The notes below the pieces were generated by a model. That model saw only the letters and a list, made by a program, of their open reading frames with translations, had not been told where the DNA came from and did not search any database. A stretch of DNA of 40,779 nt from Clostridia bacterium (GTDB taxonomy: Bacteria > Bacillota > Clostridia > Oscillospirales > Acutalibacteraceae), in assembly GCA_017465085.1 (NCBI GenBank), contig JAFTWW010000006.1, positions 1-40,779 on the forward strand. Reading direction: 5' to 3'. Made by a program: the position numbers and the translations under genes. The first letter of the stretch is position 1; every line of letters starts with the position of its first letter. Below, piece by piece: positions 6,225 to 10,321 of this stretch.

Positions 6225-7151
6225 ATGCCAATCAAAATCCCCGATAATCTACCTGCCGTAAAAACACTTGCGGAGGAAAATATCTTTGTTATGACCGAAA
6301 AACGCGCCATAACTCAGGATATCCGCCCCCTTAAAATTTTACTGCTTAACCTGATGCCCAAGAAGATAGAAACCGAAACTCAGTTATCCCGTCTTCTCGG
6401 AAACTCACCCTTGCAGGTGGATTTCACCTTTATTCACACCAAAAGCCATCAATCCAAAAACACCTCGGCAGAGCACCTTTTCACCTTTTATAAAACCTTT
6501 GATGATGTTAAGAACGATACCTTTGACGGTATGATTATAACAGGCGCTCCTGTGGAGCATCTTAAATTTGAAGAGGTTGAATATTGGGAGGAGCTTTGCG
6601 AGATAATGGAGTGGACCAAAACCCACGTTCACAGCACCTTCCATATATGCTGGGGCGCTCAGGCAGGGCTTTACTACCATTACGGGATTGAAAAATACCC
6701 CCTAAATGAAAAGCTTTTCGGAGTATTTCCCCACACGGCTGATTATAAAAAATCCATCCTCTTCCGCGGCTTTGATGATACCTTTATGGTGCCTCACTCC
6801 CGCCACACCACCGTTAAGCGTGAAGATATAGAAAAGGTTGAGGAATTAAGAATACTCGCCTCTTCAAAGGAAGCGGGTATCTATGCTGTTGGAACTAAGG
6901 GCGGTAAGCAGATATTTATAACGGGCCATTCGGAATATGATGCAGGAACACTAAGGGCTGAATATCTTCGCGACTTAAACGAGGGTAAGCCCATATCCAT
7001 TCCTAAAAACTATTTCCCTGATGATAACCCCGAAAACGAGCCTCTTGTTACCTGGAGAGCCCACGCAAACCTGCTTTATACCAACTGGCTTAACTATTTT
7101 GTATATCAGACAACACCGTATGATATAAGTGAGATTAAGAATAAGAAATAA
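6225..7151 (+). CDS. metA: Homoserine O-acetyltransferase (MetA family)
   Basis: Acylates homoserine in the first committed step of methionine synthesis. The 308-residue protein shows the family nucleophile Cys142 in [15 protein letters not shown], the PHSRHTTV segment, and the His/Glu pair in [10 protein letters not shown]. Residue 111 is Glu in TGAPVEHL. In this family Glu at 111 goes with acetyl-CoA use and Gly with succinyl-CoA use, so the enzyme is predicted to be an acetyltransferase despite the common name homoserine O-succinyltransferase. That agrees with the adjacent O-acetylhomoserine sulfhydrylase. A GGAGG ribosome-binding site lies 7 bases before the ATG. The stop codon is followed within two bases by the first hairpin of the repeat array, which would serve as the terminator. 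Confidence 0.96.
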
Positions 7152-7152
7152 C

Positions 7153-7260
7153 AAAATAAATCCCGCGAGGGATTTATTTTATTTCACGTTTGGGCAAACC
7201 CAAATATTTCACAATTCCGAGCGGAATTATTTCACGTTTTGCCGTAGCAAAATATTTCAC
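7153..7260 (+). repeat. Hairpin array, left copy, flanking the nuclease island
   Basis: Four different short palindromes are separated by a constant linker ATTTCAC. In order: stem AAAATAAATCCC with loop GCGA (7153-7180); TTTGGG with loop CAAA (7189-7204); AATTCC with loop GAGC (7213-7228); TTTTGC with loop CGTA (7237-7252). A linker follows each one. The first hairpin doubles as the metA terminator. The whole unit recurs in inverted orientation at 9291-9398. Confidence 0.9.
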
Positions 7261-7266
7261 TTTGAT

Positions 7267-7315
7267 AAAGAACGCCACAGATTCAAGTCTGAATCTGTGG
7301 CGTTCTTTTATTTTT
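7267..7315. terminator. Long perfect hairpin closing the island transcript
   Basis: An 18-bp perfect stem (AAAGAACGCCACAGATTC, 7267-7284, pairing with 7291-7308) has a six-base loop AAGTCT and T-rich sequence on both sides. On the minus strand it starts at the stop codon of the four-helix-bundle gene and is its terminator. On the plus strand it backs up the metA terminator. Confidence 0.85.
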
Positions 7316-7658
7316 GCAGGTTGTTTTTTGCTGTGTTAATAGAAGCAACTAGCATGCGACGGATGGTTCTGCATTGATTATATAAATCCTTTACGGTTTT
7401 TTCGTCAACCAACTCGGATTTTACGAACAATTCTAACCAATACTCCGTTTCATAACATTCTTTTAATGAGATTTGAAGTTTTGATATGAAATCGACCTTG
7501 CTGTGAGCATAGTTAGCTTCGTGTATATTTGCTCCAATAGAGGTCGATGAGCGTTCGAGCTGGTTAGTTAAAGAATAGTGACCTTTGATTGATTCGCCCA
7601 ATTTAATAATTTTAACAGCAAAATCGGTTGATAAATCTCTAAGTTTTGATTCAGCCAA
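7308..7658 (-). CDS. Four-helix-bundle protein (23S rRNA IVP / S23 family)
   Basis: A protein of 116 residues with the family signature SSTSIGANIHEANYA followed by SKVDFISKLQISLKEC and ETEYWLELF. Relatives are encoded in 23S rRNA intervening sequences, and related small bundles (Avd) accompany diversity-generating retroelements. They are thought to form ring-like oligomers that bind nucleic acid; no catalytic activity is known. The start is probably TTG at 7658, because AGGCGGTGA lies a few bases before it. A GTG at 7667 is also in frame but overlaps the ribosome-binding site. The gene begins 14-23 bases after the stop of the SAP-nuclease gene, so the two are one transcription unit. Both are more AT-rich than the surrounding chromosome. 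The stop codon overlaps the terminator hairpin. Confidence 0.9.
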   Translation of the reverse strand: MAESKLRDLSTDFAVKIIKLGESIKGHYSLTNQLERSSTSIGANIHEANYAHSKVDFISKLQISLKECYETEYWLELFVKSELVDEKTVKDLYNQCRTIRRMLVASINTAKNNLQK

Positions 7659-7681
7659 AAAAATCACCGCCTGTTGTAGAG

Positions 7682-9220
7682 TTATAGGTTTAAAAGTTTT
7701 ATATCAAACCTACCATTTTGCTTGAAATAACCAAGATTAAATATCTCTCCATCATGATTCTTGCTCCATGTTTCCGCTACCGTTTTTAATTCATCTGCAG
7801 TTATTAAAAGTATTTGAGTATCATTGTTTAGAGAATAATCTACACACTCTTGTACGCTTTGCGGTGTAAAATCAGGAGCTATAACCATAAATACAACAAC
7901 ATCTTTATCCGATGTTTTAATATATTTATCGAACTGCTGTATATGGTCTTTGAGATTTACGGGCGTCTCCTTAGATTTATTATCCCACATTATATATTTA
8001 TCCTTAAAAGATAATTTACCGTCCGGATGTTCTGTTCCCGTTAAGGTTAAAGGCTTATTTAACAACATTTTTTCAAATATGTAGTTTGTTGCTTCTTCAA
8101 AATAATGTTCACACTGCAAATCCTTGTTAATGATGTCGTTGTTTCTTAAAAACTTCAGATCTCGATTTGCTAACTCGCGATATACAGTTACTAGTTTTTC
8201 TCTAGAATCTTCAGTTTTTAATTCTATTCTGCGAATAGAATCATAATAATCTAAAATTCTATCAATTAAAGATTTTTTTGCTCCAGAGACACTTAAACCT
8301 ATATCACTACACCAATTTGAAAGTTCTTCTACATTCATACCGTCATAAGCAGAGAATCCCCCAATCAAATTTGATGGTTGGATTGATTTCAAAATCACAT
8401 TTTTCAATTCGTTTACTGTAGGCGAGTCGGAAATTTCAATATTAGCTTTTTCGTAGTATTTACTAGCTTTTGCAACTATATCAATTAAATATTGCTTGCG
8501 GGTTTTTTTAACAACATAATCCACTAATTTTTCATATCCATATGAGCGGATTTCAACACCATAATACTTGCGGATTTCCTTGGCAACATCATCCGGTATC
8601 ATATCACACATGATGCCATCTGAATTCTTTATACAAACGAGAAGGCCCTTTGCTTGCAGAGTCCTTCTAGCTACATCAATATCATCAAAAGAGTGCAGGG
8701 AGTTTCCCCAATTAGGGAATCTACCGGATTTAGCCTCCAAAATTTGCTGTTCTCTAATGGTAATGGAAAGATATTTTCTCAAAGATTCTAATAGATTCTT
8801 TTCATCTACTGAAATATCATCGTTAAGCGACCATGCAGTATCTAACATATACTTAAATAACGCTAAATCTTTAGAAATTTTGTTGATATCAAAATTGTTA
8901 GATTCATCAATAATAGATTTTTCATAGTTGAGGATAGCGGAATCAGTTTCTTTGCAAGGCGATATAAAATCATCTTGGTTTAATAGATAATCTCTCAACA
9001 AAATAGGCGCAATAATTCTAATTGCTCTGTTATTATCAAGTTTTATTTCCTCCAAACGATTAGATATATTTTCATATGAGGTATACTGTTTCGCCGTTTT
9101 TAACAAAAAAGTTTTAATCTCATCTAGTTCCAATCGCCTATAGTCTGCTACATATGCGGAAGCTATTCTTTTTGCTATCGTTATATTTGGTATTTGCTCA
9201 ATAAACTTAGTGAAATCCAT
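7682..9220 (-). CDS. SAP-domain protein with FokI-like PD-(D/E)XK nuclease domain
   Basis: A 512-residue protein not recognised as a named family. Residues about 294-328 (MNVEELSNWCSDIGLSVSG then AKKSLIDRILDYY) read as a SAP DNA-binding motif. The C-terminal 150 residues carry a PD-(D/E)XK nuclease motif: Pro399-Asp400 in HPDGKL, and Asp413-x-Lys415 in MWDNKSK. A helix with Gln428/Asp431 (HIQQFDKYI) follows, then the strand VVVFMVIAPDF and the segment QILLITADELK. The PDG, DxK, QxD and hydrophobic-strand order parallels the FokI cleavage domain by eye. The N-terminal 290 residues are mostly helical and unassigned. No methyltransferase is adjacent, unlike ordinary type IIS systems. GAGGAGG precedes ATG 9220 by 7 bases, and a consensus promoter lies upstream. 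AT-rich composition, the four-helix-bundle partner and the flanking inverted arrays suggest acquisition. A defence nuclease or an element-encoded nuclease are both possible. Confidence 0.8.
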   Translation of the reverse strand: MDFTKFIEQIPNITIAKRIASAYVADYRRLELDEIKTFLLKTAKQYTSYENISNRLEEIKLDNNRAIRIIAPILLRDYLLNQDDFISPCKETDSAILNYEKSIIDESNNFDINKISKDLALFKYMLDTAWSLNDDISVDEKNLLESLRKYLSITIREQQILEAKSGRFPNWGNSLHSFDDIDVARRTLQAKGLLVCIKNSDGIMCDMIPDDVAKEIRKYYGVEIRSYGYEKLVDYVVKKTRKQYLIDIVAKASKYYEKANIEISDSPTVNELKNVILKSIQPSNLIGGFSAYDGMNVEELSNWCSDIGLSVSGAKKSLIDRILDYYDSIRRIELKTEDSREKLVTVYRELANRDLKFLRNNDIINKDLQCEHYFEEATNYIFEKMLLNKPLTLTGTEHPDGKLSFKDKYIMWDNKSKETPVNLKDHIQQFDKYIKTSDKDVVVFMVIAPDFTPQSVQECVDYSLNNDTQILLITADELKTVAETWSKNHDGEIFNLGYFKQNGRFDIKLLNL

Positions 9221-9239
9221 AATATTCCTCCTCGTAACA

Positions 9240-9268
9240 ATATTAACACAAAATTAACTAATTGTCAA
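9240..9268 (-). promoter_or_regulatory. Promoter of the nuclease/four-helix-bundle operon
   Basis: On the minus strand a perfect TTGACA (9263-9268) is separated by 17 bases from TAATAT (9240-9245). It lies inside the island between the right hairpin array and the nuclease gene, so the two genes travel with their own promoter. Confidence 0.75.
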
Positions 9269-9290
9269 AAATAAGTAATTGCGATAAGTA

Positions 9291-9398
9291 GTGAAATATT
9301 TTGCGTTGCAAAATGTGAAATAATTCCGTTCGAAATTGTGAAATATTTGGGAATAACCCAAATGTGAAATAAAATAAATCCCTTGCGGGATTTATTTT
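9291..9398 (-). repeat. Hairpin array, right copy (inverted)
   Basis: An inverted counterpart of 7153-7260 with the same four stems and the ATTTCAC linker (GTGAAAT on the plus strand). Read on the minus strand the stems are AAAATAAATCCC, TTTGGG, AATTTC (mispairing at one position with GGAATT) and TTTTGC. The loops are GCAA, TTATT, GAAC and AAC. Every loop differs from the left copy while three of four stems are identical. The first hairpin sits 5 bases after the stop of the AEC transporter gene and acts as its terminator. Confidence 0.9.
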
Positions 9399-9403
9399 GT
9401 TTC

Positions 9404-10321
9404 TTATGAAATTATTTGCGCTAACGTAACTATAAGCGGCATTGTAATAATAGAAATCAGGGTGCTGACAGATACTAAATTTGCAGAGGCTTCGGTATCG
9501 GCGCCGTATTTTGCCGAGAACATCGTAGTTGCGGCGGCAATGGGCGAGCAAACCGAAATTGCCGAGGATATGAGCATTGTTCCTCTCACGCGGCAAAGAT
9601 ACATAATACCGAGGGCGGCGAGGGGTAAAATGACAAGGCGCAGCGTCATTGCCCAGATTCCCTTAATATCCTTAAAGGTTTTGAATATATCGCTCTTTGT
9701 AAGATAATAGCCTATAATTATCATTGGCAGAGGTGTATTAAGGGCGGCAAAGTAGCCTATGGGCTCTGCAACAACCTGAGGTATGGGAAGGGAGGTTAGG
9801 AAGATTATCACACCGATAACCACCGCTATCATACCTGGGTTTAATACTACCTTTTTAACGTTTATTTTTTCGTTCCCGCCACCCATAACGGCGATACCGT
9901 AACTCCACATAAACACATTGAATACAGCAACATAAACAGATGCGATAAATACACCATCATCGCCTAAAAGCGCCTGCTGTAAAGGCAATGACATATATCC
10001 GCAATTAGCGAACACCACTCCGAAGAGCAGTACCTTTTCCTTTGCCTTATCGTTATCCTTAATAGTAAGGCGGCTTACTATAATAAAGAAAAGGTGGGCG
10101 GCAATTGCTATAACAAAGGATATAAGCAGAGTTTTAAGGGAATCCTTATCAAACTCTCTTATAAAGGATTTTATTATTACGCAGGGGGTTGCAATATTAA
10201 GAACCACATCGGTCATACCCTTGCAGGCCGCTTCATTTAATATCTTGGCCCTGGCAAGAACCACGCCCACCAAAATGAGAATGAAGAGTATAACCACCTG
10301 AACGGTTACATTTATAAACAT
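9404..10321 (-). CDS. AEC (auxin efflux carrier) family transporter
   Basis: A 305-residue integral membrane protein with about ten hydrophobic segments. Examples are VQVVILFILILVGVVLARA at the N terminus and LVSVSTLISIITMPLIVTL at the C terminus. Family features include the early segment ILNEAACKGMTDVVLNIATP and the late region ISVCSPIAAATTMFSAKYG. Bacterial AEC members export or exchange small organic acids such as malate; the substrate here cannot be read from sequence. The ATG directly follows the galT stop (TAAATG), so translation is probably coupled to galT. No good separate ribosome-binding site is seen. The gene ends at the right hairpin array of the nuclease island. Confidence 0.9.
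   Translation of the reverse strand: MFINVTVQVVILFILILVGVVLARAKILNEAACKGMTDVVLNIATPCVIIKSFIREFDKDSLKTLLISFVIAIAAHLFFIIVSRLTIKDNDKAKEKVLLFGVVFANCGYMSLPLQQALLGDDGVFIASVYVAVFNVFMWSYGIAVMGGGNEKINVKKVVLNPGMIAVVIGVIIFLTSLPIPQVVAEPIGYFAALNTPLPMIIIGYYLTKSDIFKTFKDIKGIWAMTLRLVILPLAALGIMYLCRVRGTMLISSAISVCSPIAAATTMFSAKYGADTEASANLVSVSTLISIITMPLIVTLAQIIS

Follow-up and report, generated by a model that had tools for sequence, protein, structure and literature searches.

We analyzed a stretch of 40,779 nucleotides from a Clostridia bacterium of the Acutalibacteraceae (assembly GCA_017465085.1, contig JAFTWW010000006.1, positions 1 to 40,779; hereafter the window), in which a small two-gene island encodes a four-helix-bundle (FHB) protein and a SAP-domain protein with a nuclease-like C-terminus. 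The two genes stand between inverted arrays of hairpins that carry the heptamer tag ATTTCAC (GTGAAAT on the other strand). Such arrays belong to the bundle gene: the basic unit is one 7-nt tag repeated in two inverted halves (mostly four plus four copies), usually with unrelated hairpins between the copies, followed directly by the FHB gene, an arrangement often seen in gut bacteria. From sequence comparison we propose, with a probability of about 0.6, that the island derives from a mobile element with many other copies elsewhere, in which each FHB protein would recognize its own tag array and help to mobilize it. Passages of two earlier papers describe the widespread FHB family as functionally uncharacterized or without known function (PMC11270868; PMC4990558), and our search of the open-licence PMC literature found no paper linking FHB genes to tag arrays or repeats.

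Tag arrays precede FHB genes

Homologues of the FHB gene occur in 56 of the 70 genomes of the genus that were searched. We examined 131 of the 140 matches, and 124 of them had enough upstream sequence for a blind scan of 300 nt, which seeks the best 7-mer with copies before a split point and inverse copies after it. An array score of at least 5 was reached upstream of 87 of these 124 loci, as against 34 of 1240 shuffled sequences. A further set, for which 80 of 574 loci were kept (two were dropped as identical to genus proteins and two for short upstream sequence), gave the same score upstream at 67/76 loci and downstream at 1/78, with 6/760 shuffles reaching it; these loci are kin of the same groups and not an independent clade. 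Upstream of three control genes, rlmD, GGGtGRT and the AEC transporter gene (30 loci each), the score was reached in 2/90 cases. A first-pass annotation of the window had expected the arrays to co-occur with both island genes. This expectation holds for the FHB gene and fails for the nuclease gene, whose homologues are mostly free of arrays.

The arrays take two forms, with tags either about 16-30 nt apart and separated by hairpins or in tandem at 7 nt, and four is the commonest number of tags per half (66/116 and 79/116). In the loci read, the array lies past upstream terminators and ahead of the FHB promoter, whose -35 box abuts the last tag (by eye). At five loci (L110, L111, L112, L113 and L137) small methyltransferase-, NUDIX- or kinase-like genes (by eye) begin shortly past the FHB stop codon, as if in a cargo slot.

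Tags change with the FHB lineage

The tag differs between lineages, its classes including TGAAAT, TGAAGT, TGAATT, TGATGT, TGATAT, CGATAT and GCTAAA. We compared tags with proteins for 133 labelled arrays (score at least 5.5, protein of at least 95 aa) out of 200 regions. Pairs of FHB proteins less than 60% identical share a tag class in 0-6% of cases, depending on the identity band; the share is 72% at 60-70% identity and 83-99% above 70%. When each protein was matched to its nearest neighbor below 85% identity, the tag class agreed in 113/133 cases, compared with a mean of 20.8 and a maximum of 37 after shuffling. Linked inheritance alone would also yield such agreement, so these data establish one evolving unit, and not binding.

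The sequences between the tags behave differently. Spacers are as unlike within an array (35% likeness) as between random arrays (33%), and 321/601 of them hold a stem of at least 4 bp where 16 are expected. Tag copies within an array are 93% alike, a figure that is partly due to construction since copies were accepted at no more than one mismatch. Hairpins are thus conserved in shape and not in sequence, and the copies of the tag change together, pointing to a single factor that reads every copy. In the stems of FHB-linked arrays we counted 1108 Watson-Crick pairs, 13 G-T pairs, 12 A-C pairs and 34 other mismatches; the helices had been selected on their Watson-Crick pairing, which disfavors the two kinds of mismatch alike. 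This lack of a G-T excess favors a DNA (or strand-symmetric) structure over an RNA gene. A Xanthomonas homologue of the FHB protein is described, in a passage of PMC4990558, as a homopentamer of four-helix bundles.

Solo arrays, Gut-1 and signs of mobility

A pattern search of the window's own genome found paired ATTTCAC hairpin arrays at four other places: beside the tmRNA gene, beside tRNA genes (two places) and behind a terminator-like hairpin (by eye). These solo elements are compact, with a strong half (S) that matches the Rfam family RF01706 at 73-82 bits followed by an inverted weak half (W) at 40-52 bits. The S half of arrays with the TGAAAT tag is the Gut-1 motif (RF01706), which a passage of PMC2864571 classes as a non-coding RNA known only from environmental sequences. 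RF01706 matches both solo and FHB-linked arrays, with up to 91 bits and at 5 of the 14 FHB loci tried. It was found at E <= 0.01 in 119/198 genomes searched, above the cut-off in 91 of them, and in 2/14 control genomes, in neither above the cut-off.

Solo arrays are dispersed. In one genome (G106), CGATAT solo units occur in six nearly identical copies, each at a place of its own and with left flanks that are unrelated; one copy is short by about one tag-hairpin unit (22 nt). On their right, most of the six run into a heptamer array (AATTCGT/AATGCGT) and mostly a GTAGGGGCGATTC repeat; at these loci (L329-L334) CGATAT arrays, heptamers and the GTAGGGGCGATTC repeat are nested into one dispersed composite. 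Among the 70 genomes, tag triplets of TGAAAT were found in 46, of CGATAT in 40 (some plainly coding) and of TGATGT in 22, and reversed-pattern controls were rare; individual places of the TGAAAT and CGATAT triplets are given among the matches listed. Genomes that hold the cognate FHB gene have more solo arrays for CGATAT (p=0.003) and TGATGT (p=0.003), in a test whose counts and labels were entered by hand and in which matches to the FHB gene's own array were subtracted by estimate.

Repeats also flank the FHB genes themselves. Comparison of upstream with downstream sequence gave direct repeats with a score of at least 16 at 10/105 loci and inverted ones at 6, while mismatched pairs gave 0 and 0. 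Several of these repeats are the S half repeated after the FHB gene; at four loci (L127, L148, L115 and L335) the S half or its start appears again there with matches of 33-100 nt, in the order S-W-FHB-S, which suggests circles or tandem intermediates. As a class, the elements show the two marks of mobile elements, presence or absence at orthologous sites and near-identical copies at unrelated sites.

Insertion sites and fold-back copies

A tRNA gene (15 isotypes in all) precedes 49 of 110 hairpin arrays, in every case on the strand of the array. A stem of at least 8 bp lies within 70 nt ahead of the first tag in 82/112 arrays, as against 4/112 shuffled ones. Stems of at least 7 bp before the first tag (n=90) end 0-3 nt from it in 53 cases and 18-27 nt away, one hairpin earlier, in 30.

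Two conserved genes allowed orthologous sites to be compared. Behind GGGtGRT (30 loci out of 58 genomes with a match), array and FHB gene stand at the same place in 4/30 loci, 2 loci hold remnants and 24 hold neither (two of the 24 with less than 60 nt left). In the window's own genome, a 73-nt stretch from the end of the host gene is found again past the FHB gene with 4 mismatches, and after it come a terminator and further sequence that resemble those of the element-free site in another genome (G021). Several element-free genomes (L352, L359, L362, L364, L373, L374 and L377) carry tandem heptamers (AATGCGT, AATTCGG; by eye) between stop codon and terminator, so two array types use this one site. 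Behind rlmD (30 loci out of 63 genomes) we found five arrays with three different tags and three remnants (by eye). Ahead of arrays and remnants alike stands an inverted copy of the coding end of the species in question, and the inverted-repeat score averages 10.3 with arrays (n=5) and 6.2 in the others (n=24; p=0.005), the latter including three remnants and one unrelated terminator, with one borderline locus left out. The inverted copy fits both a fold-back made at insertion and a guide arm kept by co-evolution.

A pre-existing terminator hairpin was considered as the target and rejected as a general one. It could serve behind tRNA genes; array-free GGGtGRT and rlmD sites are mostly without a hairpin, so that one is not needed in advance.

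The copy in the window

The features of the island and its flanks are as follows.

6225-7151, plus strand: metA, convergent flank (named from the first-pass annotation and the sequence, without a domain search)
7152-7183, no strand: outer hairpin of the left array, AAAATAAATCCC-GCGA-GGGATTTATTTT, read as the collapsed S half of a Gut-1-type array (comparison with solo elements by eye)
7176-7262, minus strand: left tag-hairpin array (W half), with ATTTCAC tags at 7181, 7206, 7229 and 7254 and three 6-bp hairpins
7267-7308, no strand: stem-loop with a perfect 19-bp stem where the bundle gene ends; its T tail is on the plus strand
7308-7667, minus strand: FHB gene, 119 aa (PF05635/TIGR02436), start GTG at 7667 or TTG at 7655
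7682-9220, minus strand: SAP-domain protein of 512 aa whose C-terminus carries a PD-(D/E)XK-like motif; interpreted as a cargo cassette
9240-9268, minus strand: promoter-like TTGACA-17-TAATAT of the SAP cassette (sequence scan)
9271-9370, plus strand: right tag-hairpin array (W half, inverted copy of the left), with GTGAAAT tags at 9291, 9315, 9338 and 9364
9366-9403, no strand: outer hairpin of the right array, a 17-bp stem reaching the AEC stop codon (repeat and fold analysis)
9404-10321, minus strand: AEC transporter gene, upstream flank relative to the direction of the island genes (named from the first-pass annotation)

The two arrays (7150-7262 and 9290-9403) are inverted copies with arms of 45 nt (96%), 44 nt (93%) and 15 nt (100%). 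Both fold as single strands with unusual stability (z -5.9 on the left, -7.7 on the right; 0/200 shuffles as stable for either). Four hairpins per array had been described at the outset, which is right for the left one; the right one has three stable hairpins and one weak. The window has 17 copies of ATTTCAC, of which 8 lie within the arrays, and 0/100 shuffles reached 17. The arrays resemble W halves closed by a plain hairpin in place of S. An array on both sides of an FHB gene is unusual, as downstream scores of at least 6 were found at 6/125 loci and scores of at least 5 at a single one of the 78 further loci. On the best reading, the window copy is a derived, two-sided version that carries a nuclease.

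Much of the first-pass description of the genes was borne out. Both genes run in the same direction on the minus strand (7308-9220) and are AT-rich, with a GC content of 0.30-0.36 against 0.39-0.51 in the flanks shown. The FHB protein scores above the curated cut-offs of PF05635 (1.9e-26, 92.8 bits; cut-off 33.8) and TIGR02436 (9.5e-30, 103 bits; cut-off 24), in keeping with the family proposed for it, and the family profile matches PDB chain 2rld (E=6.5e-40). The predicted promoter is present at 9268-9240, in a sequence where promoter-like sites overall are hardly above shuffles (15 vs 11.2, standard deviation 2.9). The terminator is a stem-loop at the place given for it, its T tail reading as a plus-strand terminator. 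The arrays had been placed 2-5 bases past the neighboring stop codons; the distance is 0-1 bases, the outer stems starting at 7153 and ending at 9403 and the genes ending at 7151 (metA) and 9404 (AEC). Another FHB gene, 50% identical and of the tandem-heptamer type, lies downstream of an AEC gene, the window's neighbor, in genome G047 (L104/L179, G047:C185:11891-13492).

The SAP nuclease is a separate cassette

The SAP domain (PF02037) of the 512-aa protein was found with 7.3e-08. Its PD-(D/E)XK-like residues, E375, D400 and D413-x-K415, are kept in 12 relatives, consistent with a nuclease; in these, two haloarchaeal ones among them, E375, D400-G401 and W412-D413-N414-K415 are invariant. The AlphaFold model (pLDDT, the predicted local distance difference test, of 42) is unusable for judging a FokI-like fold, and a phmmer search of the PDB with the protein found nothing relevant.

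Full-length homologues are rare: 6/99 relatives within the order and 5/391 genomes of the class, the window being included in both counts, with a C-terminal fragment in 2 more of the order relatives. They stand at differing, unrelated loci, most of them with their own TTGAC...TATAAT-like promoter (by eye). Inverted arrays on both sides were seen at 0/9 other full-length loci in the 350 nt examined on each side, and heptamer arrays lie upstream of the gene in two genomes (G549, score 6.5; G025, by eye). An FHB gene adjoins 1/9 of them, in G022, where the SAP gene follows a distant FHB gene (42%) with another tag; at the four loci from the class, no FHB gene was found within the 3.6-4.5 kb examined. 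The joint occurrence of nuclease and bundle genes that had been anticipated in other genomes was seen at this one of the nine loci, and the idea that the two genes form one unit is not supported. That SAP homologues stand without arrays speaks against the two-gene version of the island and for a version made of array and bundle gene. The SAP gene would be a cargo that landed in or beside these elements more than once. A unit of nuclease plus array was considered separately and rejected on the SAP homologue loci.

One haloarchaeal relative each was found on plasmids and on phages (24% identity), and none in IMG/VR with the patterns used. In one genome (G004:C9, L044:7932-8036) the C-terminal 35 SAP codons lie beside a glycosidase-like gene (by eye) that adjoins an intact SAP gene in G019:C14 (L042:12140-13678), which suggests that the fragment is a decayed or deleted copy at the same site. 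A DUF559-like gene (by eye) adjoins a further SAP homologue (G007, L039:7814-8215).

FHB genes on plasmids, phages and in defense loci

We examined 21 of 33 FHB-bearing plasmid records (Cyanobacteria, Bacteroidota, Spirochaetota, Chloroflexota and Bacillota). Upstream of the FHB gene, a lag of 7 was the best among lags 4-12 in 18/21. Clear tandem 7-bp repeats, with at least 18 of 21 matches, were reached in 12/21 (Cyanobacteria, Bernardetia and Treponema) as against 1/1050 shuffles, some of the Nostoc loci being near-copies of one another. Cyanobacterial plasmids with heptamers directly before the FHB gene come from Nostoc, Dolichospermum, Aulosira and Planktothrix. In two scaffolds of gut phages, a hairpin array precedes the FHB gene (scores 6.5 and 7.0).

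Several plasmid FHB genes (L508, L509, L511, L513-L515) lie inside or beside defense-type loci, with helicase or DUF1156 genes and Swt1-HEPN or N6-methylase genes, or with cas1/cas2. The positions seen are next to cas1 or flanked by cas2 and cas1, next to Swt1-HEPN genes, and, in Monoglobus, between hsdS and hsdR. FHB genes in cas loci (PMC3936711) and beside CRISPR adaptation genes (PMC10910872) are mentioned in passages of earlier work, and these reports fit insertion into such loci.

Proposed mechanism and alternatives

The FHB protein would bind the tags, probably as unpaired heptamers brought side by side once the hairpins extrude, and in the hairpin-less form it would bind tandem heptamers directly. 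It would then mark or bundle the array so that it can be excised and inserted, while an enzyme of the host or another one cuts and joins. To our knowledge FHB proteins have no known enzyme active site or activity, so a partner is probably needed for these steps. Binding would also repress the FHB gene's own promoter. The inverted copy of the target end ahead of the first tag would arise on insertion, as though a free 3' end folded back and was copied before being joined to the element. The window's FHB gene, together with a self-contained nuclease cassette, lies between two inverted, shortened arrays with the tag class of this FHB clade.

Several observations weigh against this reading, beyond the absence of a known FHB activity. 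No transposition was seen. The agreement between tag and protein could be plain co-inheritance of linked DNA, and 37/124 genus loci stay below score 5. Solo arrays occur also without a cognate FHB gene, and for TGAAAT, the window's own tag, their number is not significantly related to one (p=0.18). The strand of the gene ahead is not always that of the array: for the 57 arrays with enough sequence that are not behind a tRNA gene, the longest upstream open reading frame (ORF) is on the same strand in 40, on the opposite one in 12 and absent in 5, and a cruder measure on 120 arrays gave 36 same, 33 opposite and 51 neither. The 73-nt duplication is a single case, and what looks like a fold-back copy could instead be a hairpin from one old insertion that compensatory changes have preserved; no such copy is visible (by eye) at the window's own junctions. 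Both window arrays score below the gathering score of 50 bits for Gut-1 (38.1 on the left; 32.4 on the right, 9271-9349). No empty metA-AEC site was found among the AEC loci of 29 relatives; 19 of these have galT beside AEC and none has metA within the stretch examined.

The main rival is that the FHB protein is only a DNA-binding autorepressor and the array its operator, arrays being moved by an unrelated, unseen transposase or by recombination. This is suggested by the -35 box abutting the last tag and by the lack of a match between the FHB protein and any nuclease or transposase family. Neither four plus four hairpin-bearing tags nor a location after tRNA genes and gene ends would be required of an operator, and arrays with the same tag occur in many copies away from FHB genes; we consider this explanation unlikely, at odds of roughly one in five. 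A structured RNA, with the arrays being Gut-1 as catalogued, for example a small RNA or an FHB leader, would agree with the RF01706 matches to solo and FHB-linked arrays and with the published classification as non-coding RNA (PMC2864571, in the passage cited above). It is quite improbable given that G-T pairs, at about 1% of stem pairs, are no commoner than A-C pairs, that in the loci read the array lies between the upstream terminators and the FHB promoter, and that tandem 7-mer forms have no hairpins between their tags.

The remaining two alternatives concern the island itself. The first-pass annotation saw a two-gene defense or mobile island with the nuclease as its working part and the arrays as its ends. 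SAP and FHB genes are indeed neighbors in two different settings (the window and G022), and heptamer arrays precede the SAP gene in G549 and G025. Set against this, most SAP homologues stand alone at other loci, FHB genes are common in the genus where full-length SAP genes are scarce even among order relatives (56/70 and 6/99 genomes), and PADLOC has no match for either protein, and we regard the idea as very improbable. Finally, two opposite solo arrays may bracket a captured FHB and SAP segment, as in a composite transposon of insertion sequences (IS). Both window arrays look like shortened inverted S-W units with differing loops, and solo arrays exist elsewhere in the same genome; the stems of the window arrays match each other better than solo copies elsewhere do (by eye), which suggests duplication at the site. 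Such a composite origin seems doubtful yet a good deal less so than the two-gene island, and as a statement on the window copy only it is compatible with an FHB protein that recognizes and helps to mobilize its own array.

If FHB proteins do bind their own arrays and the arrays move, this would be mobile DNA without a known type of transposase and with a readable protein-tag code. More tentatively, S23/IVP FHB proteins may be the recognition, and perhaps mobilization, factors of a class of bacterial mobile DNA that has no known transposase: a ring-shaped FHB protein would read a private 7-nt tag on extruded single-stranded DNA, as tandem heptamers or hairpin-aligned tags, and the element would insert behind transcription units by fold-back. 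One system would then explain the Gut-1 "RNA", many tandem heptamers of cyanobacteria and other bacteria, the ORF carried by intervening sequences of 23S rRNA, and the FHB genes scattered among cas and restriction genes. With a cognate tag for every FHB lineage, FHB function, Gut-1, catalogued as a non-coding RNA since 2010, and the cyanobacterial heptamers, for which we know of no agent, become one testable question.

Comparison with known systems

The statement that the island fits no standard category holds for every category tested. It differs from DNA transposons and IS in having no recognizable transposase, since neither island protein matches one in Pfam, NCBIfam or PHROGs (Y1 HUH transposase included). 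Unlike restriction-modification and known defense systems, it has no partner methyltransferase among its genes and, as noted, no PADLOC match. Avd, the accessory protein of diversity-generating retroelements, is a four-helix-bundle pentamer that handles nucleic acid, and the FHB protein may be likened to it as a four-helix-bundle protein; the island itself has neither a reverse transcriptase nor a variable repeat.

The 23S rRNA intervening sequences encode proteins of the same family (PF05635, S23/FHB) and are described in a passage of PMC4990558 as small, patchily distributed elements suspected to be mobile. The window's island lies between metA and the AEC gene, outside any 23S rRNA gene, and the FHB unit differs from intervening sequences in its lineage-specific tag array and solo derivatives; the RNase III step that removes those sequences from rRNA has no bearing on it. 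Gut-1 RNA corresponds to the S half of arrays with the TGAAAT tag, and departs from the elements described here in that their stems pair like DNA and that it covers one half of an FHB-linked array in one of many tag versions. The plasmid heptamers before FHB genes resemble the heptanucleotide tandem repeats of cyanobacteria (short tandemly repeated repetitive sequences, STRR), for which we know of no described link to an FHB gene.

The closest likeness is to REPIN-RAYT systems, in which REP sequences go with a transposase of the Y1 HUH type: short palindromes, each with a short conserved tag at its side, are dispersed in intergenic copies, and the cognate gene stands next to a pair of them. 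The present elements likewise are palindromes with a tag, scattered through the genome, and have their cognate gene close to a pair. They differ in that the defining Y1 transposase is absent, its place being held by an all-helical FHB protein that matches no transposase family. Their arrays also hold about 8 tags in two halves, vary in tag between lineages, exist in a tandem form without hairpins, often stand behind tRNA genes and gene ends, and at rlmD are preceded by a fold-back copy of the host gene.

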